Shown: in pieces, positions 11,170 through 21,525 of the stretch
How the letters are laid out: each line of letters opens with the position of its first letter
Numbering within the stretch: position 1 is the stretch's first letter
Origin: a virus
DNA length: 25,518 bases
Strand: one strand, 5' to 3'
Virus record (IMG/VR): IMGVR_UViG_3300044823_000488
Coordinates: 1 to 25,518 of that record
Notes under the pieces: model-generated
What the model was told of the DNA's origin: nothing
The model's input: only the letters and a program-made list of their open reading frames with translations
Databases searched by the model: none
Translations under genes and position numbers: made by a program

Positions 11170-11575
11170 AAAAAAAAAAGTCGTATGCAGCCTCCTGAAA
11201 ATCGAAGTCGACGCCGAGTTGCTGGTAGTTGTACTGGGTGGTGAGACCCAGAAGCCGCGCCTCCTGCTGCGTCTTCGCCGGAGGCGCCGCCACCCAGGTC
11301 TGGCAGAGCAAGACATTGGTCTCCTGCTCGATCTCGTCCTCGGCGTCGCGGATCCAGTCGGAGATCGTGTCATCGTCGATCGGGATCGGCGGATTGCCGT
11401 ACTGCTGGATCGGCACCACCACGTATGCCCGCAGGTCGTTGGGCTGAATGCCGGTCTTGGTCTTGGCACCCGACGAGTAGGTGTTGACGATGGGCTGCTG
11501 ACCGGCGACGGTCGTCCAGTTCCACAGCGCCTTGGTGGGTACGGGAGGCCCGTACTGCGGGGAGGATTGGCTCAT
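11168..11575 (-). CDS. head-tail connector, N-terminal part (gp6-like), ends at T10 run
   Basis: The frame of 135 residues starts at ATG 11575 and ends with FFF and TGA formed by a run of ten T. Residues about 45-85 (VVVPIQQYGNPPIPIDDDTISDWIRDAEDEIEQETNVLL) resemble the helical start of gp6-like connectors, where a D-D-x-x-I is followed by an amphipathic helix and a hydrophobic L. These form the ring under the portal through which the tail is attached. The ATG overlaps the stop of the GIY-YIG gene (ATGA). The first 20 bases of this gene also occur, with two changes, at the start of the GIY-YIG gene. As written the gene is interrupted; see the continuation at 10582-11169. Confidence 0.6.
   Translation of the reverse strand: MSQSSPQYGPPVPTKALWNWTTVAGQQPIVNTYSSGAKTKTGIQPNDLRAYVVVPIQQYGNPPIPIDDDTISDWIRDAEDEIEQETNVLLCQTWVAAPPAKTQQEARLLGLTTQYNYQQLGVDFDFQEAAYDFFF
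11556..11575 (-). repeat. 20-bp direct repeat, connector copy
   Basis: The first 20 bases of the connector gene read ATGAGCCAATCCTCCCCGCA on the minus strand. They match the first 20 bases of the GIY-YIG gene at 18 positions. Both copies begin with an ATGA that overlaps the stop of the gene before. Confidence 0.8.
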
Positions 11576-12486
11576 GCCGTCAGCCCTTCTTTCGCCGCCC
11601 GTCGACGAGCGTGCGCCGCTATCGCGGCCTGTCGCATGTGTTCACGGTGCTCCGCCGAGAACGGAACCCCCTTACGAGATGCGCCTAGCTTAGCACGCGA
11701 CTCGGCTGTCCACACGCGCCGCGCGTTCGACGCCGCCATCTTCACCTTGACCTCCGGCCGCGCCAAGGCGACCGTCAGCGACTTGCTCATGCGCTCGCGC
11801 GTCTCATCGCTGACCGTTCGTCGCCGGTTTGACGCTGCGATCTTCTGCCGCACGGTCAGCGTCATGGCGACTCGCACCAATGGGATCCGCGCCGCCACAA
11901 TAGCGGGATCCTGCTTCCGGCCGCGAAGAGAGTCGCTGATCTTTTTCTTATGCGCCTCGGATAGCGGTCCGTTCACGCGAGCCGCCTGCATCTTCGCCAG
12001 TCGCTCCGGCGACAGCGGTGGCCGTGCCGCAAGGGCCGCGCGGATGTGTGCGAGATGCTCTGGTGTCTTTTGCAGGGCCAGATGGGTTGCGCTCATGCGC
12101 TGCCGCACGTCGTCGGGAACGGGCCGCCCCTTGTGTTTCCGGCTCATTTCAGCGCGAGCAGGGTCGGTATGGCGGTACCCTACCGTACCTTCGCCGCCCA
12201 ACGTCATGTTGTAGCCGCCAGGAGCGAGGGTGGCGTAATCCGCTATGAACCGCTGCTCCAACGCCTGGGCATGTGCCCAAGAGTCGACGCTCTGAAGAAC
12301 CCGAACCGTAAACGCCGACAAACCGTACTTGCGTATGGCGCGGTGCAAGAGCAACTTACTTCCCTTCCGCGCTTCGCTACAGTGTTTTTTGAACCGTTTG
12401 ACAGCGGCACACTTCGATATACCAACGTATTGCTTTCCGGTTGGCGCACACGTGAGCAAGTAGACTTGCGGGGAGGCTTGACTCAT
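11572..12486 (-). CDS. GIY-YIG homing endonuclease with NUMOD3 repeats
   Basis: The 304-residue protein starts at ATG 12486, overlapping the stop of the upstream gene (ATGA), and its own TGA overlaps the connector ATG. The GIY-YIG nuclease core covers residues about 8-95: VYL at 8-10, YVG at 20-22, catalytic Arg31 (RFKKH) and Glu77 (LEQRFI), all in the usual spacing. From residue about 105 it carries several NUMOD3-type DNA-binding repeats (GYRHTDPARAEMSRKHKGR, then further copies with SPERLAKM, SEAHKKK, SDETRERM, SAEHREH). Such free-standing enzymes cut a site in related phages and spread their own gene. The first seven residues (MSQASPQ) precede the nuclease core and match the start of the connector (MSQSSPQ). 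The gene is less GC-rich than its neighbours. An upstream in-frame start at 12516 is less likely. Confidence 0.88.
   Translation of the reverse strand: MSQASPQVYLLTCAPTGKQYVGISKCAAVKRFKKHCSEARKGSKLLLHRAIRKYGLSAFTVRVLQSVDSWAHAQALEQRFIADYATLAPGGYNMTLGGEGTVGYRHTDPARAEMSRKHKGRPVPDDVRQRMSATHLALQKTPEHLAHIRAALAARPPLSPERLAKMQAARVNGPLSEAHKKKISDSLRGRKQDPAIVAARIPLVRVAMTLTVRQKIAASNRRRTVSDETRERMSKSLTVALARPEVKVKMAASNARRVWTAESRAKLGASRKGVPFSAEHREHMRQAAIAAHARRRAAKEGLTA
12467..12486 (-). repeat. 20-bp direct repeat, GIY-YIG copy
   Basis: The first 20 bases of the GIY-YIG gene read ATGAGTCAAGCCTCCCCGCA on the minus strand, differing from the connector start at positions 6 and 10. After base 20 the two genes diverge completely, which marks the border of the inserted nuclease gene. 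Confidence 0.8.
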
Positions 12487-12839
12487 TTGCGGCCCTGGCG
12501 CTGTTGCCGGCGCCACTCCTTCACCCGGAGCGCCTCACGCTCCCGCCACGCCGGCGAACCCCGCACAGGTGCATCGGGCGCTGCGGCTTCCGCCACCGGC
12601 GCAACCGGAGCGGTCACGGCCTCACCGGCCGGCGCGGGCTCGGCGCCGAAGCACTCCAGCACGACGTCGGCGTTGCCGTGGAGCCGGCCCACCTCGATCG
12701 CGGTCAAGTCGCCCGTCGCGTAGTCGTTGCCCTGTGTCCAACGGAAGGCAACCCCGGCGACTTCGCCGGCTGGGGCGTGCCGATGCCGCCAGGCCGTCCA
12801 GATCGGAAAGCCGCGGCGCAGTTTCGCGCGGAAGGTCAT
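12483..12839 (-). CDS. small post-capsid structural gene, function unknown
   Basis: The product has 118 residues from ATG 12839. The first half holds a compact beta/helix region (residues about 28-65, with DYATGDLTAIEVGRLHGNADVVLEC) like the small proteins often encoded just after the capsid gene. The second half is alanine/proline-rich (about 66-92) and the end is strongly basic (REREALRVKEWRRQQRQGRK). The basic tail suggests contact with DNA or with an acidic partner. The stop overlaps the start of the GIY-YIG gene; before that insertion it must have overlapped the connector start in the same way. The family is not recognised. The Shine-Dalgarno is poor (GGGG directly at the ATG). Confidence 0.6.
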   Translation of the reverse strand: MTFRAKLRRGFPIWTAWRHRHAPAGEVAGVAFRWTQGNDYATGDLTAIEVGRLHGNADVVLECFGAEPAPAGEAVTAPVAPVAEAAAPDAPVRGSPAWREREALRVKEWRRQQRQGRK

Positions 12840-12870: not shown

Positions 12871-12916
12871 CCATCCCGGTGCGGCGTACGTTTAGCACGA
12901 GTAAAAATAAATCTTG

Positions 12917-12934
12917 CGTATTAACGTTAATACG
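12917..12934. promoter_or_regulatory. 18-bp perfect palindrome before the HNH gene (possible operator)
   Basis: CGTATTAACGTTAATACG reads the same on both strands with no mismatch and no spacer. It ends 15 bases before the HNH start codon in an AT-rich patch. This is the form of a dimeric repressor site, and it overlaps where a promoter or ribosome site should be. A short hairpin in the leader is the other reading. Confidence 0.5.
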
Positions 12935-12949
12935 ATCACACTTCCGCGT

Positions 12950-14587
12950 ATGAAAACATGTATCGCTTGCGGAGAGGCTAAGCCCCTCTCAGAGTTCACC
13001 AGAGATAGCCGATCGTCCGACGGATTGCTGTCGCGCTGCCGTGCATGCACGAAACTAAAGAACCGGGTAGCGTATCAGGCACACGCCGACGCTCGCCGCG
13101 CTGCCCAGCGGGAGAAAAACAAAACGGACAGGGTGGCGAAGGCGGTGTACAACCGCCTGTACCGCGACCGCCACCGCGACGAATTGATTCAGGCATCACG
13201 CGATTGGCGCGCGGCCGGAAACAAGGTCAACCGATCCCCCGAATCCGTCGAACGCCAGAATGCGCGCAAGCGCCTGCTGTACGCGACAGACCCTGCATAC
13301 AAGGAGCGCGCAAAGGCGTACGTCGCACTGTACCGCAAAACGCACCCGGGGTATTCGACGTCAAGCTACAAGAAGTGGCGCGCTGCCAATCTGGATAAGG
13401 CGCGAAAATACTCACGTGAGTATTATTTTGCGTACAACCAAACACCAGAAGGTCGAGTCAATCAAGCTGCCATGCGGCTAAAACACCGAGCCAAGCGGCA
13501 AGCACGGCAAGCCGCCTACTACGCAAAAAGATATGGCGAATCTGGCGTAATAACTAACGAATACCTGAACTGGCTCAATAAATGGCAGGACCACTGCTGC
13601 TGCTACTGCAACGCACCCCTCAACCAAAAGGAAACCATCGAGCATGTCGTTCCGCTCAACCGCGGCGGCGAGAACAACCCCCACAACGTTCTATTGGCGT
13701 GCTCGCACTGCAACACTTCAAAAAATCAGCGGCTGTTTGATGTTACAGAGTGGCTACCGTTTAGCGTGCAGACACCGACAAGGACACATTCCATCTTCAA
13801 CACCGGCAAGGCGCTCGACGCGTGCCTAAACGCCGGTATCCCGGCCGAGATCGACGGCGACGCAATCCTGCTGCGACCGGGCCGCAGACTGCGAGTCCTG
13901 TCCACTTTCTGGCTGTCGGACCGGAGCGAACACGACACAACCGTAGCCTCGCTTCACGCGCTCTACCCTAGCGACCTCCTGACGTTCGACCACGAATGGC
14001 AGGCGCGGCCGAACGCGATGCTGAACGTCACCATTGCCAAGGCAGGACTCGCTGAGTCCATCGGTGCCCGCGAACTCGATATCGAGGCGCCGACAGCGGA
14101 AGAAGCGCGCGCCTTTATGGATCACTGGCACGTGCAAGGCTTCGCCGGCGGATCATGGTACGTTGGTCTACGGCGGCACAGCGGAGGCGATTGGTGCGGC
14201 ATGGCCTCGTTCCGCCGCTTTGGCAGCGCCTACGAATTGGCGCGTCTTGCGTTCAAGGATCATGTTGCCGGCGGGCTTAGCCGCATCGTCACGGCGTTCA
14301 TGCGCGCTGCACCCGAACCGGGCGACTTGCTAACCTACGCGGACACGCGTTTTGGCGAAGGCGGTGGATATGCACACGCGGGCTTCGAGCCCGACGGTGA
14401 ATCGGCACAGTGGTACGGTTATGTCAACGGCGTGCGCATTCATAGCCGCCAAGCATACCGCAAAGACGCTATGGCAACGCTACTTGATTGGTTCGACCCG
14501 GAGTGGTCCGAGCACCGCTTGGCACGTGTCAACGGCCTGTGGCGCCTCAACGGCCTGCCACAGAAACGATTTATCCTGCGCGCGTAG
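12950..14587 (+). CDS. HNH homing endonuclease with N-terminal zinc finger and Hef-like C-terminal domain
   Basis: The product has 545 residues from ATG 12950; a TTG at 12914 is in frame but adds nothing protein-like. Residues 4-33 form a zinc finger (C4, C7, C30, C33) of the kind seen in front of HNH enzymes. Residues about 210-265 form the HNH nuclease: CCYC, then EHVVPLNRGGENN with the catalytic His, PHN, and CSHCNTSKNQ, which completes the paired CxxC zinc ligands. Residues about 385-545 resemble the C-terminal domain of Hef-type phage homing enzymes: YELARLAFKDHVAGGLSRI, LLTYADTRFGEGGGYAHAGF, WYGYVNGVRIHSRQAYRKD. The gene is less GC-rich than the structural genes, lies on the opposite strand between capsid and post-capsid genes, and has its own terminator. 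All visible catalytic residues are present. Confidence 0.85.
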   Translation: MKTCIACGEAKPLSEFTRDSRSSDGLLSRCRACTKLKNRVAYQAHADARRAAQREKNKTDRVAKAVYNRLYRDRHRDELIQASRDWRAAGNKVNRSPESVERQNARKRLLYATDPAYKERAKAYVALYRKTHPGYSTSSYKKWRAANLDKARKYSREYYFAYNQTPEGRVNQAAMRLKHRAKRQARQAAYYAKRYGESGVITNEYLNWLNKWQDHCCCYCNAPLNQKETIEHVVPLNRGGENNPHNVLLACSHCNTSKNQRLFDVTEWLPFSVQTPTRTHSIFNTGKALDACLNAGIPAEIDGDAILLRPGRRLRVLSTFWLSDRSEHDTTVASLHALYPSDLLTFDHEWQARPNAMLNVTIAKAGLAESIGARELDIEAPTAEEARAFMDHWHVQGFAGGSWYVGLRRHSGGDWCGMASFRRFGSAYELARLAFKDHVAGGLSRIVTAFMRAAPEPGDLLTYADTRFGEGGGYAHAGFEPDGESAQWYGYVNGVRIHSRQAYRKDAMATLLDWFDPEWSEHRLARVNGLWRLNGLPQKRFILRA

Positions 14588-18151: not shown

Positions 18152-18268
18152 TCAGGGCGCGTACGCGGGGCTGCCGATGCCGAAAACGACAAAAGGGGGT
18201 TTGGCCTTGGCCGTGCGGCCACACGCGATGGTCTCGACGGGACTCTCTGGACTGCCGTCTACCGGCAC
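18152..18268 (-). CDS. possible small overlapping ORF (38 aa)
   Basis: A GTG at 18268 overlaps the protease stop codon region by ten bases and opens 38 codons ending PPFVVFGIGSPAYAP. A GAGGG lies about ten bases before it. It fills most of the 150-base gap between protease and scaffold genes. The coupling is typical of this operon, but the frame is short and the composition does not settle the matter. No family is recognised. Confidence 0.3.
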   Translation of the reverse strand: MPVDGSPESPVETIACGRTAKAKPPFVVFGIGSPAYAP

Positions 18269-19101
18269 TTCAGCGCACCCTCGAGGGCACGGCGGTACAT
18301 GACGGCGTGGGCCATCAGGTCGGCCATGCCGGCGGGCAGGCCGGCGCACTTGGCGAAGTGGCGCCGGTAGCCCAGCAGCGACGGCGCATCCTGCACGCCG
18401 CAGGCCTTGCAGGTGCTCCGCGCGTAGGCGTCGTCCATGGTCTGCGGGATGTCGAGCGGCATCGTCGAGGGCGGCATCGCCTCGGCCTTCGCCGCGACCA
18501 GCTCCGCGAGGAACGCCTTGGCCGTCACGATCCGCGCGGGGGAATTCAGCGCGGTGTTCTTGGGGGTGCGGGTGAAGGCCATGCTGCGCCAGTCCAGCGC
18601 CTTGATGACGAACTGCGTCGCGCCCGTCACCGGGCACGGGCTTTTGGTGCAGTCGTCCAGGTCGGTGGGGAATCCGTAGATCGAGGCGTACCACTGCACG
18701 GGCGGGTCGCACATCAGGGAGCCCCAGAACTCGTCGTAGTGGTTGTGCGCCGGGTCGTAGGTGCCGTCACGGGAGCGGCTGATCTCGCCCTCGACGAAGG
18801 TTCGGTGGTCCGGCGCGGCCTGCACGGAGAGGGGACGCCCCACGATATAGGAGGAGGGGTCGGGGATGCCGAGGCGGTCGCCGAACTCGGACTTGTGGTC
18901 GAGGTCGAGGTGGCCCTTGGCGACAAAACTGGCCGCGCTGTCGAGGAGCGCCTTCTGGAGGACCACGTCTCCATCCGTGTCGACTTCCTCGGTTGAGGCC
19001 TCCACAGAGACGACCCGTCGCCCGTTCGCGTTGGGCGTACGGGCCTTCACGATCGCGGGGAAGCGCGCGACGATGGCGCGGTCGAGTTGGGTGTCATCCA
19101 T
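18259..19101 (-). CDS. prohead maturation protease with C-terminal zinc finger
   Basis: The product has 280 residues from ATG 19101 (a TTG two codons earlier is possible). The N-terminal half follows phage prohead proteases: RRVVSVEASTEEVDTDGDVV, then GHLDLDHKSEF, where His64 or His69 is the likely catalytic histidine, and YASIYGF with Ser140 as the likely nucleophile, then the strand/turn DWRSMAFTRTPKNTALN, which corresponds to the usual S-x-x-x-x-PxNxxA motif. It would cut the scaffold and the capsid N-terminus in the immature head. Residues 231-252 add CKAC...H...C (C231, C234, H248, C252), a CCHC zinc finger not normal for the family. The TnpB island lies directly upstream, so this gene, the scaffold and the capsid may need a promoter of their own or read-through across the island. 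Confidence 0.72.
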   Translation of the reverse strand: MDDTQLDRAIVARFPAIVKARTPNANGRRVVSVEASTEEVDTDGDVVLQKALLDSAASFVAKGHLDLDHKSEFGDRLGIPDPSSYIVGRPLSVQAAPDHRTFVEGEISRSRDGTYDPAHNHYDEFWGSLMCDPPVQWYASIYGFPTDLDDCTKSPCPVTGATQFVIKALDWRSMAFTRTPKNTALNSPARIVTAKAFLAELVAAKAEAMPPSTMPLDIPQTMDDAYARSTCKACGVQDAPSLLGYRRHFAKCAGLPAGMADLMAHAVMYRRALEGALKCR

Positions 19102-19200
19102 GCACAAAGCATAAGGTACCCTGTGCGAAGGCGCCTATGCCATGCTCTGGCAACACGCAGCAGTTGACAAAGGTGAAAATGTGGTGCACATGCTTCTCAC

Positions 19201-19344
19201 ATGGCCACCACAGTCCGACAATCCGTTACACTCACAGAGCCGCAATTCGCCTTTCTCAGGGTAGAGGCGGAACGACTCGGCATCACGGTATCGGACCTTA
19301 TCCGACGGATCGTGGATCAGCACCGCGAGGCACGCGGAACGTGA
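19201..19344 (+). CDS. small ribbon-helix-helix (RHH/CopG-like) protein
   Basis: A 47-residue frame from ATG 19201 to TGA 19342-19344. It fits the RHH fold well: a short N-terminal strand (VRQSVTLT), helix A (EPQFAFLRVEAERLG), a turn, then helix B (TVSDLIRRIVDQHREA). RHH dimers bind operator DNA with the strand pair. The stop codon overlaps the TnpB start (GTGA), so the two are co-translated. A perfect TTGACA at 19164-19169 lies upstream, without a clear -10, and GTGGTG (19181-19186) can pair with CACCAC (19206-19211) across the start codon. Likely role: repressor of its own operon, and so of the nuclease. The ribosome site is poor. The alternative is a chance frame, but the fold pattern argues against that. 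Confidence 0.65.
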   Translation: MATTVRQSVTLTEPQFAFLRVEAERLGITVSDLIRRIVDQHREARGT

Positions 19345-20477
19345 TTCTATCCTACAAATACCGGCTGTTCACAAACCCCACGCAGGAAGTCGCTCTGACT
19401 GGGATGCTCGGCGCCTTTTGTGATCTATACAACGCCTGCTTGCAGCAGCGAGTAGAGGCGTATCGCCGTCGCGGCATCAACCTGCACTATAGCAACCAAG
19501 CATCTGAGTTGAAAGCTGTGCGTGCGGCAGACGAGCGACTTGCGAGCTTCGGATTCTCAACTGAGCAGCAAGTTTTACGCCGGATAGATAAAGCGTTCGC
19601 AGCATTCTTTGGTCGACTAAAACGTGGCACAAAACCAGGCTTTCCACGTTTTAGAGCAAAGGCGTCCTTCAACAGCGCCGAGATGCGTGTTGGCGACGGT
19701 CTGACACTGCGCAAAAGCCATAAGATCGGCATAATTGGTATTCCAGGCGAAATAAAGGTGCGATGGCACCGACCGCTTCCAACTAACGCAAAACACGGCG
19801 CCGCTGTGGTCAGTCGCAAAGCCGGCAAATGGTTTATCTGCTTCCAGATTGATTTGCCAACCCCCGAACCAGTCGAACGAACCTTTGCGCCTGTTGGCGT
19901 CGATCTCGGCCTCACCTCCCTAGCGGCGCTATCCACAGGCGAGACGGTACCGACGCCGCAGTGCACGAGGAACGCAGCCAAGGCGCTCCGCCGCGCCCAG
20001 CGAGCCGTTGCCAGGAAGCGGCGAGGCAGTAAGCGACGCACGAAGGCTAAGCTCCGCGTCGCTCGGCTGTTCGCATACGTCGCCAGCCAACGACGGGATT
20101 TTTCGCACAAACTCTCGCGATCTCTTGTTGCTCGCTTCTCGCATATCGCCTTCGAGAACTTGAACATCAAAGGGCTGGCGGCCGGGATGCTCGCCAAGTC
20201 CGTGCACAACGCCGCCTGGAATCAACTCGTCCAGCACGTTCAGTACAAGGCTGCAAGCGCCGGTGCTGTTGTTGTAATGGTCGATCCTCGCGGAACAAGC
20301 CAGGCTTGTCCGGAGTGCGGCACGATCAAGCGCAAGACGCTCAAGGAAAGGACGCACCGCTGCGAATGCGGGTGCGTGCTTGACCGCGACGTTGCTGCCG
20401 CAAAGATCGTGCTCATGCGGGCGGATTTCGGGCCGGGAACCGGCCTTCAGGCGCCAAGCCAGTGGATTGCCGCATAG
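19341..20477 (+). CDS. tnpB: TnpB RNA-guided nuclease (IS200/IS605 family)
   Basis: The product has 378 residues from GTG 19341, the normal size for TnpB; the frame is open back to 18993 but the conserved start (ILSYKYRLFTNPTQE) begins at the GTG. The RuvC-like site is complete: Asp188 in VGVDLGL, Glu272 in AFENLNIKGL, and the DRD at 348-350. The zinc ribbon has C323, C326, C341 and C343. The basic helical region 210-240 (RRAQRAVARKRRGSKRRTKAKLR) is typical. TnpB uses an RNA made from the 3' end of its own transposon to cut DNA next to a short motif, favouring retention of the element. No TnpA transposase is in the window, so it cannot move by itself. It lies on the opposite strand to the phage operon and is less GC-rich. 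Confidence 0.92.
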   Translation: MILSYKYRLFTNPTQEVALTGMLGAFCDLYNACLQQRVEAYRRRGINLHYSNQASELKAVRAADERLASFGFSTEQQVLRRIDKAFAAFFGRLKRGTKPGFPRFRAKASFNSAEMRVGDGLTLRKSHKIGIIGIPGEIKVRWHRPLPTNAKHGAAVVSRKAGKWFICFQIDLPTPEPVERTFAPVGVDLGLTSLAALSTGETVPTPQCTRNAAKALRRAQRAVARKRRGSKRRTKAKLRVARLFAYVASQRRDFSHKLSRSLVARFSHIAFENLNIKGLAAGMLAKSVHNAAWNQLVQHVQYKAASAGAVVVMVDPRGTSQACPECGTIKRKTLKERTHRCECGCVLDRDVAAAKIVLMRADFGPGTGLQAPSQWIAA

Positions 20478-20865
20478 CTTGCCTGAGAAGCCGTCTGCGG
20501 AATCTGACGGAGCGTTCACGGCGGACAAGGATTGCACGCGCCACCGGGACGACCTATGGTTTGCGTGTGGCAGCGCCCTGTACCCTTGCGGTGACACACT
20601 CCCGGTAACGGACGGGGCGAGGCCCCTTCCGCGGGTAAAAAGCAGGGTCTATGTGCGGAATCGAGTCACCTGCGCCGCCCTGATCGTGGTGAGGGCAGCC
20701 GGGAAGTAGACCGGCTTTTCATATGCCGCTGGGACACCCAGCCGAGCCGCCTGGGGCTCGACAAAACCAGTTGCATTGGCAGCGGGCAGCGCGTAGGTTG
20801 CTTATGCCCGTGACACCCCCTGCCGGTCGGCCGTCTTCCGCGAAAGCAGAGGGCGGCCGATCTTT
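20478..20865 (+). ncRNA. hairpin-rich non-coding region after tnpB, candidate omega RNA (reRNA) and element right end
   Basis: No gene is supported in these 388 bases. On the plus strand I see: CACGC 20535-20539 with GCGTG 20563-20567; a strong hairpin at 20601-20635 with core GGGGC-GAG-GCCCC; two hairpins set back to back, GCTGGG-ACA-CCCAGC at 20728-20742 and CGAGCC...GGCTCG at 20743-20760; CGGGCA 20783-20788 with TGCCCG 20805-20810; and a terminator at the end. TnpB families make their guide RNA from the end of tnpB and the following right end, so this is the expected place. The exact scaffold/guide border cannot be set from this sequence alone. Confidence 0.45.
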
Positions 20866-20867
20866 TT
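20827..20867 (+). terminator. rho-independent terminator after the TnpB region
   Basis: The stem TCGGCCGTC / GGCGGCCGA (one G-T pair) encloses a 15-base loop and is followed by TCTTTTT. It points along the plus strand, ends the tnpB transcript, and its T run overlaps the stop codon of the minus-strand Cys-rich gene. Confidence 0.7.
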
Positions 20868-21525
20868 ACGCAGCCTCCCCCTCAGCGGTCATCGGCGCGT
20901 AGGCGATAGCGTTGCCGAGCTGGGAGGCGAACTCGGCGGAGAAGTGGAGCCGCCGGCCCTCCCCGGCCGCGAACACCGCGCCCGACAGCACCGGCGACAT
21001 TGCCGCCTCGCACTTCTTCAGCCATTCGCCCATCGGACGGCGACCGATCTCGCAGGCGCACCAGTTCAGCGTGTACTTGGGCGACGCGATCTCCCGCTCG
21101 AACCACGCCATCACGGCTTCGCCGTGGTCGGAGTGGTAGTCGGCATGGAACGCCATCTCGATCGCCAGGTCCCGCACGTTGCTGGCCGCCACGTAGTTGA
21201 GGTGCATCCGGCCGACGAACCGGCAGTCCGGGCAGGCGCAGATGCTCCACCGGTGGCCCTTGGGGACCGTGCGCTCGGCCGCCGCGAACTCGCGGCCCCG
21301 CATGCGCCACTCCGTGCAGATCCGGCAGCCGCAGGACTCCCGGTTCGACATCGAGGCGTGCCTGAGCAGCGACACCTGGGCCGCGCCGGCGTCCATCATG
21401 CCGGACGCGACGACCGCCGACGCGAAGTAGGCCTCGAGCACACGGGCCGCCCGCCCCGCCTCGACGGAAAGCTGCTCGCGCCGCTCCGCGAGAGCGGCGA
21501 TGCGGGTGTCAGGAGAGAAGTACAT
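20866..21525 (-). CDS. cysteine-rich protein of unknown function, likely zinc-binding
   Basis: The product has 219 residues from ATG 21525, which has GGTGAG just upstream and overlaps the end of the previous gene by 17 bases. The N-terminus is helical (residues about 5-55). It then has CGCRIC (65-70) and CACPDC (96-101), two CxCxxC clusters with His91 and His108 near them, and a further CAC at 156-158. Such a set suggests one or two zinc sites. Between them lies a helical region (NYVAASNVRDLAIEMAFHADYHSDHGEAVMAWFEREI). I do not recognise the family. It lies between the glycosyltransferase block and the protease, from which it is separated by the TnpB island. Confidence 0.6.
   Translation of the reverse strand: MYFSPDTRIAALAERREQLSVEAGRAARVLEAYFASAVVASGMMDAGAAQVSLLRHASMSNRESCGCRICTEWRMRGREFAAAERTVPKGHRWSICACPDCRFVGRMHLNYVAASNVRDLAIEMAFHADYHSDHGEAVMAWFEREIASPKYTLNWCACEIGRRPMGEWLKKCEAAMSPVLSGAVFAAGEGRRLHFSAEFASQLGNAIAYAPMTAEGEAA

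Follow-up and report, generated by a model that had tools for sequence, protein, structure and literature searches.

A CopG-like ribbon-helix-helix gene occupies the transposase slot of a phage TnpB element and may control nuclease dose

The stretch of viral DNA examined here (the window) is a 25 kb fragment of a phage genome, the IMG/VR virus record IMGVR_UViG_3300044823_000488, 25,518 nucleotides long. It carries a 1418-bp element (19102..20519, plus strand) that separates the head maturation protease gene (18259-19101, minus strand), at its start codon, from its 5' leader. The element encodes a CopG-like ribbon-helix-helix (RHH) protein of 47 aa, in an ATG...TGA open reading frame (ORF) at 19201..19344 (plus strand), and the 378-aa nuclease TnpB at 19341..20477 (plus strand, GTG...TAG). 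The two genes overlap by 4 bp as GTGA, so that the RHH gene ends within the TnpB start codon; an initial annotation made from the letters alone had said as much, and the ORF coordinates bear it out. No tnpA transposase gene was found between 19102 and 20519 in this phage fragment, and only the RHH and tnpB ORFs fit there. The same annotation had placed the pair inside a phage structural operon. It does sit at structural genes, but antisense to the operon and between two genes.

Comparison with two syntenic phages, L204 and L205, whose major head proteins are 75-77% identical to that of the window, defines the ends of the element. Both lack the RHH gene and tnpB, and the window flanks, once joined (from 20520 onwards and up to 19101), align through the junction with both phages. 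Within this alignment fall the leader, with its conserved CATAGG and TGCAA, and the ATGG with which the head protease begins; right-flank similarity has p=0.010 against L204 and p=0.002 against L205. By sequence comparison, therefore, the element is 19102-20519, give or take one base, and follows directly on CCAT (19098..19101, plus strand). This insertion-site motif, which resembles a transposon-adjacent motif, is the reverse complement of the ATGG start. The RHH gene falls inside these boundaries, and the insertion abuts a short motif, with no duplication of the target. The uninterrupted alleles in both relatives, as seen with homing endonucleases, fit the self-spreading insertion proposed earlier. 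Most relatives with a recognisable left end also have CCAT at a fixed distance before it. Insertion at a start codon is documented for the window only and is unproven as a family rule, since 63% of random CCAT sites, a poor control, also open ORFs of at least 60 aa; CCAT itself is clear. A Shine-Dalgarno-like GGAGG for an opposite-strand gene often lies just inside CCAT (left ends of L024, L027, L040, L047, L087, L088 and others; for example GGAGGATCTGATG), as if the element had repaired a displaced translation start, although the control for this pattern is inadequate.

The small first gene is a genuine coding sequence with a modelled CopG-like fold. The window protein scores 19.4 bits against Pfam RHH_1, just under the cut-off of 20.5, and its homologues in L105 (70% identical) and L118 (82%) pass at 23.9 bits. 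An AlphaFold2 model has a predicted local distance difference test (pLDDT) score of 93, and its best Foldseek matches are CopG structures at template modelling (TM) scores of 0.78-0.83; as modelled, the protein adopts the ribbon-helix-helix fold. Between phages, nonsynonymous divergence (pN) is 0.17-0.20 against a synonymous divergence (pS) of 0.68-0.91. With synonymous sites near saturation, so low a pN identifies a real, selected gene, and sequence comparison places it under purifying selection. The reading frame, whose breakage in relatives would have told against the original proposal, is kept through synonymous changes.

The tnpB gene is intact. Its product passes the OrfB_IS605, Cas12f1-like_TNB and guided_TnpB models, and combines RuvC motifs with a zinc finger as IS605-group proteins do. 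A defence-library search matched it to Cas12f-type models, as expected for TnpB, and gave no match for the RHH protein. The RuvC triad (D188, E272, D350) is invariant among aligned clade relatives and aligns with the solved ISDra2 TnpB; because it is intact, the protein is not TldR-like, as the initial annotation had recognised. The third RuvC motif (residues 348-354) reads DRDVAAA rather than the usual DRDxNAA, a variant that does not signal inactivation because it also occurs in the TnpA-bearing L003 and L004.

Downstream, a putative omegaRNA scaffold covers the tnpB end and the right end of the element (20378..20519, plus strand), with a CCGTC...GACGG hairpin and a terminal GTTCAC (20514-20519). 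Homology to other elements stops at 20519-20523. The right end is conserved, and 15 of 33 pairs in its consensus fold show changes on both sides, but this conservation is not RNA-specific because the scaffold is partly coding. The predicted guide, GGCGGACAAGGATTGCACGC (20520..20539, plus strand), would start at 20520 in the phage leader of the head protease gene and adjoins CCAT in the empty site. The RNA first suggested for this region, 20300-20865, runs well beyond the right end; the scaffold ends at 20519, and most of 20520-20865 is therefore phage DNA outside the element. A separate structured RNA at 20534-20866, transcribed from a plus-strand promoter of its own, was considered and rejected: the CATAGG motif there (minus strand) is the head-protease leader conserved in L204 and L205, and an Rfam search of this candidate returned nothing. 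A GC-rich inverted repeat followed by TTTTT (20823-20868), noticed by eye and not listed by the repeat scan, lies where the neighbouring gene on the minus strand ends and may terminate plus-strand transcripts from tnpB. The right-end hairpins of the window and L105 share a GGAA loop; it was discarded as a sign of lost TnpA recognition, since L116 has this loop rather than TTTA/TTCA at both ends and yet carries tnpA.

Comparative analysis of related elements indicates that the RHH gene stands where a transposase gene would otherwise be. The closest TnpB relatives carry a Y1 (HUH) tnpA in this slot (L101/L003 and L102/L004, 76% identical; L107/L008, 64%), and in L103/L005 (73%) it holds neither tnpA nor an RHH gene. 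Four RHH types fill the slot across phages, Pseudomonadota, Actinomycetota and Chloroflexota; the transposase-less RHH/tnpB pairing noted earlier is real and is found in other elements too. The window's own type (W-type) accompanies TnpB in L105 (TnpB 71% identical), L118 (52%), L139 (37%) and L174 (a distant TnpB, 30%), with L201 as a further distant case. The S-type occurs in Azospirillaceae and a phage (L024, L109) and, having no Pfam match, is assigned to RHH by eye only. The A-type is found in Actinomycetota and a phage (seven entries), and the K-type (Arc) in Ktedonobacterales (L036, L041).

The distribution of these types points to exchange rather than common descent. In L148, with an RHH gene, and L040, with tnpA, the tnpB DNA is 94.4% identical from the start codon; the left ends are also related, and the two elements differ throughout the stretch in between. 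On the TnpB tree, RHH genes appear in 15 of 131 entries, scattered, and require 13 changes against 14.4 for shuffled labels, so the pair has arisen by exchange and is not one inherited ancient unit. TnpB-linked W-type RHHs do not form one clade (approximately unbiased test, p=0.0005), and RHH and TnpB identities disagree: 82% against 52-53% between the window and L118, and 72% against 30% between the window and L174. On sequence grounds this pattern is best read as the repeated replacement of tnpA by an RHH cassette. The expectation that the pair would be conserved as one clade fails accordingly, with tnpA in the slot of the nearest TnpB relatives and most phage relatives of the window RHH not adjoining tnpB.

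Searches seeded with the RHH proteins alone show how specific the association is. A profile built only from W-type RHHs without tnpB linkage, applied to the 14,422 ORFs surrounding 147 tnpB loci (836 kb), matches only in the slot at tnpB, in three independent cases with RHH stops at -3, -2 and +4. A-type genes are rare (3 of 400 actinobacterial genomes); each of the four matches lies upstream of tnpB, two of them new, and so do both S-type matches, one being new. K-type genes, present in 16 of 47 genomes of their order, have tnpB directly downstream at 15 of 17 evaluable loci (the query's own excluded), mostly at a spacing of 14-39 nt and with some tnpB copies decayed. Searches by tblastn of plasmids and phages with queries of 47-53 aa gave no useful matches. 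Phages employ W-type genes in many settings: some precede tnpB, others an HNH gene (L175) or AAA_24 ATPases (L180, L181), and some stand alone. The W-type RHH gene overlaps the HNH endonuclease gene in L175 (2501-3263) and a cysteine-rich ORF without Pfam match in L178 (2510-3332), so RHH-nuclease pairing may extend beyond TnpB. In L180, L186, L189 and L181 it is found immediately or a short distance before AAA_24 (Sak4-like) ATPase genes and carries the same operator-like repeat.

Upstream of these genes, repeats recur of the kind an autorepressor would be expected to leave. The putative promoter/operator of the rhh-tnpB operon (19164..19200, plus strand) contains TTGACA (19164-19169) and the half-site GTGGTG (19181-19186) within ATGTGGTGCACAT (19179-19191). 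A -35-like TTGAC, variants allowed, precedes 20 of 25 W-type genes, and GGTG lies at -27 to -12 of the start codon in 15 of 25 against 1.7 expected. This GGTG is often paired with its complement beside the start codon, and the arms differ among loci but match each other (GTGGTG/CACCAC in L175; GGGGTGC/GCACCCC in L187; GAGGTGC/GCACCTC in L186 and L189). K-type promoters have longer arms, different at each locus, that surround the -10 and run up to the start codon, as in L036 (CATGTATC-18-GATACATG) and L223 (CATGACACT-16-AGTGTCATG); the right arm falls at the start codon in 12 of 19. Combined significance for the K-type repeats is p=1.1e-6, compared with p=0.22 for tnpA promoters. The repeats fit the level control by the RHH protein that the initial annotation suggested, and the RHH protein probably represses its own promoter.

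Taken as a working model, which we consider rather probable, rhh and tnpB form an autoregulated operon in which the RHH protein controls dose, as CopG does for RepB, while TnpB and its omegaRNA cut the uninterrupted site. The element would be of the IS200/IS605 type without a transposase gene, inserted just upstream of the head-maturation protease start codon and antisense to the structural operon. We infer that the 47-aa CopG-like protein binds its own promoter and holds transcription low, that the 4-bp GTGA overlap couples translation of TnpB to that of the RHH gene, and that the omegaRNA probably derives from the 3' end of the same transcript with its guide beginning at 20520. TnpB would then cut the uninterrupted site (CCAT + GGCGGACAAGG...) in phage DNA lacking the element, the predicted cleavage target for TnpB with the 20378-20539 RNA being CCAT+GGCGGACAAGGATTGC. 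Such cutting would favour element-bearing copies, either through elimination of the others or through repair from an occupied copy. The RHH protein would set the dose, with TnpB high on entry into a repressor-free cell and low later. In plasmids, TnpB of IS200/605 elements has already been shown to work as a gene drive (PMC11870625).

One relative offers a hint, in its flanking sequence, of recombination-driven spread. To the right of the L105 element lie the 16 opening codons of a gene (MTQFEVIEAKPYHCGQ); to its left the 478-aa gene is complete, but its start has diverged (MTEFRIIEAKPFHCGQ), mostly by synonymous codon differences. With the gene start on both flanks, the interrupted gene is therefore restored by a copy differing from the predicted guide. 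The arrangement in L105 (1-2283 and 3678-3727) resembles a natural recoded rescue beside an RNA-guided cutter. A general scan for flank duplications yielded mostly GC-rich noise; L105 is convincing, and L114 may represent tandem paralogues.

Several observations weigh against the autoregulated-operon model. Only 6 independent loci of about 25 in the W-type family adjoin tnpB, and the family is not TnpB-specific for that reason. The window's own operator is incomplete: the -35 and GTGGTG are kept, but the -10 is weak and the right half-site is degenerate, which weakens the case for autorepression in the window itself. W-type inverted repeats are weakly significant locus by locus (combined p=0.008), in tests that are underpowered for these promoters individually. 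A search of the window element revealed no recognisable left-end hairpin of the canonical kind in its left part (19102..19163, plus strand); such a hairpin is present in the RHH-bearing relatives L024, L056, L058, L068, L118, L139 and L148. Finally, the uninterrupted site was not found in identical form in any phage, and L204 and L205 differ from the predicted guide at several positions. The left part also contains a second CATAGG copy at 19139 (minus strand), an ambiguous hint that a copy of the phage leader has replaced the left end, with p=0.0035 against L205, 0.53 against L204 and 0.15 against the window's own right flank.

Other explanations account for parts of this record. The RHH gene could be an ordinary phage or plasmid regulator lying beside tnpB by chance, with an overlap that means nothing for TnpB; its family does occur alone or before AAA_24 ATPases and HNH genes in other phages, and its TnpB-linked members are, as noted, not one clade. 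We regard this as very unlikely, given that, in the tnpA slot, four different RHH types have independently come to lie with their ends no more than about 40 nt from tnpB, that nearly all A-, S- and K-type genes from RHH-only searches are followed by tnpB, and that the empty-site boundaries place the RHH gene inside the element. The RHH protein might instead act on the transposon ends, binding around the left end when the element is mobilised and replacing or helping a TnpA supplied in trans. In most RHH elements both ends are still recognisable and resemble those of TnpA-bearing relatives, and one Chloroflexota assembly from the Ktedonobacterales (JAICVS01) holds both RHH-tnpB elements (L036, L041) and a tnpA-tnpB element (L064) with closely related TnpB, so that TnpA could act in trans. 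The repeats, however, coincide with the promoter and start codon rather than with end hairpins, and the window element has no recognisable left-end hairpin, which makes this role quite improbable.

Control of TnpB at the protein level, with the RHH protein as inhibitor, specificity subunit or antitoxin-like partner and not mainly a transcriptional regulator, would suit the gene overlap, which favours stoichiometric expression. Many RHH proteins are partner-binding antitoxins, and the top fold matches include TacA1, MazE and CopASO. Typical antitoxins have an extra partner-binding tail, whereas most of these RHHs, at 43-56 aa, contain little beyond the DNA-binding core, and their types swap freely among TnpB lineages; we give this reading little credence. 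A domesticated phage weapon against competing phages or the host, timed to infection by the RHH protein, is unlikely as well. The phage does carry other nuclease genes (HNH, GIY-YIG), and phages have exapted TnpB derivatives as TldR (PMC13418256). The guide, though, is the element's own flank, as in ordinary mobile TnpB elements, and the same units occur in bacterial chromosomes; recruitment by the phage, as initially suggested, is not needed to explain the data.

Set against known systems, the window element is a variant of IS200/IS605-type elements. It resembles the IS605 group (tnpA-tnpB) in its TnpB, right-end hairpin, guide taken from the right flank, overlapping two-gene layout and insertion site, which lies 3' of a short motif and shows no target duplication. 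Unlike that group, it lacks tnpA and has an RHH gene with its own promoter between the left end and tnpB. With the IS1341 group, defined as TnpB only (PMC9956272), it shares the absence of a transposase gene and a tnpB with its right end, yet a second, conserved gene lies within its boundaries. TldR, also a phage-borne TnpB relative, is no longer a nuclease and works as a transcription factor, whereas the window RuvC triad is intact. The element therefore fails the defining features of both IS groups and is not TldR.

In the CopG-RepB operon of plasmid pMV158, a tiny RHH repressor (CopG structures 1ea4/2cpg) is encoded first and sets the dose of RepB. The window operon likewise begins with a small RHH gene, joined to a DNA-acting enzyme, with operator-like repeats at its own promoter, but the partner is an RNA-guided nuclease rather than a replication initiator, and the RHH protein would bind by analogy. 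Free-standing phage homing endonuclease genes similarly lie at conserved structural genes with uninterrupted relatives; in contrast, TnpB is RNA-guided, records its target from the insertion site and has a regulator attached, and its homing is presumptive. CvkR is a MerR-type repressor of type V-K CRISPR-associated transposons (CAST) (PMC9938897). It too is a regulator encoded with an RNA-guided mobile element that it represses, as the window RHH would, but it pairs a MerR fold with a Tn7-like CAST instead of an RHH with TnpB.

These comparisons lead to a broader and more tentative proposal, which we hold at somewhat less than an even chance: that RHH-TnpB units are a recurrent element class in which tnpA is swapped for a promoter and RHH cassette in unrelated lineages, giving a dose-controlled RNA-guided homing element spread by breaks and recombination, with a nuclease burst in repressor-free cells. 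Since the same swap occurs in several bacterial phyla, it looks like a general way of restraining such a cutter. Cas12 descends from TnpB, and many tnpB genes have no transposase gene beside them; how such lone copies are maintained, and how a self-produced nuclease is kept from doing harm, are open questions in the field. If true, a dedicated repressor acquired time and again in the tnpA slot would answer part of both. Searches of an open-access collection of papers found no description of an RHH-tnpB unit, subscription papers such as the 2023 TnpB/Cas12 survey lying outside that scope.

Two further nuclease genes lie elsewhere in the window. An HNH homing-type endonuclease of 557 aa (12914-14587, plus strand) was not found in L204 or L205. 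A GIY-YIG/NUMOD3 endonuclease of 314 aa (11572-12516, minus strand) was not found in L204 and has a 34% relative elsewhere in L205.
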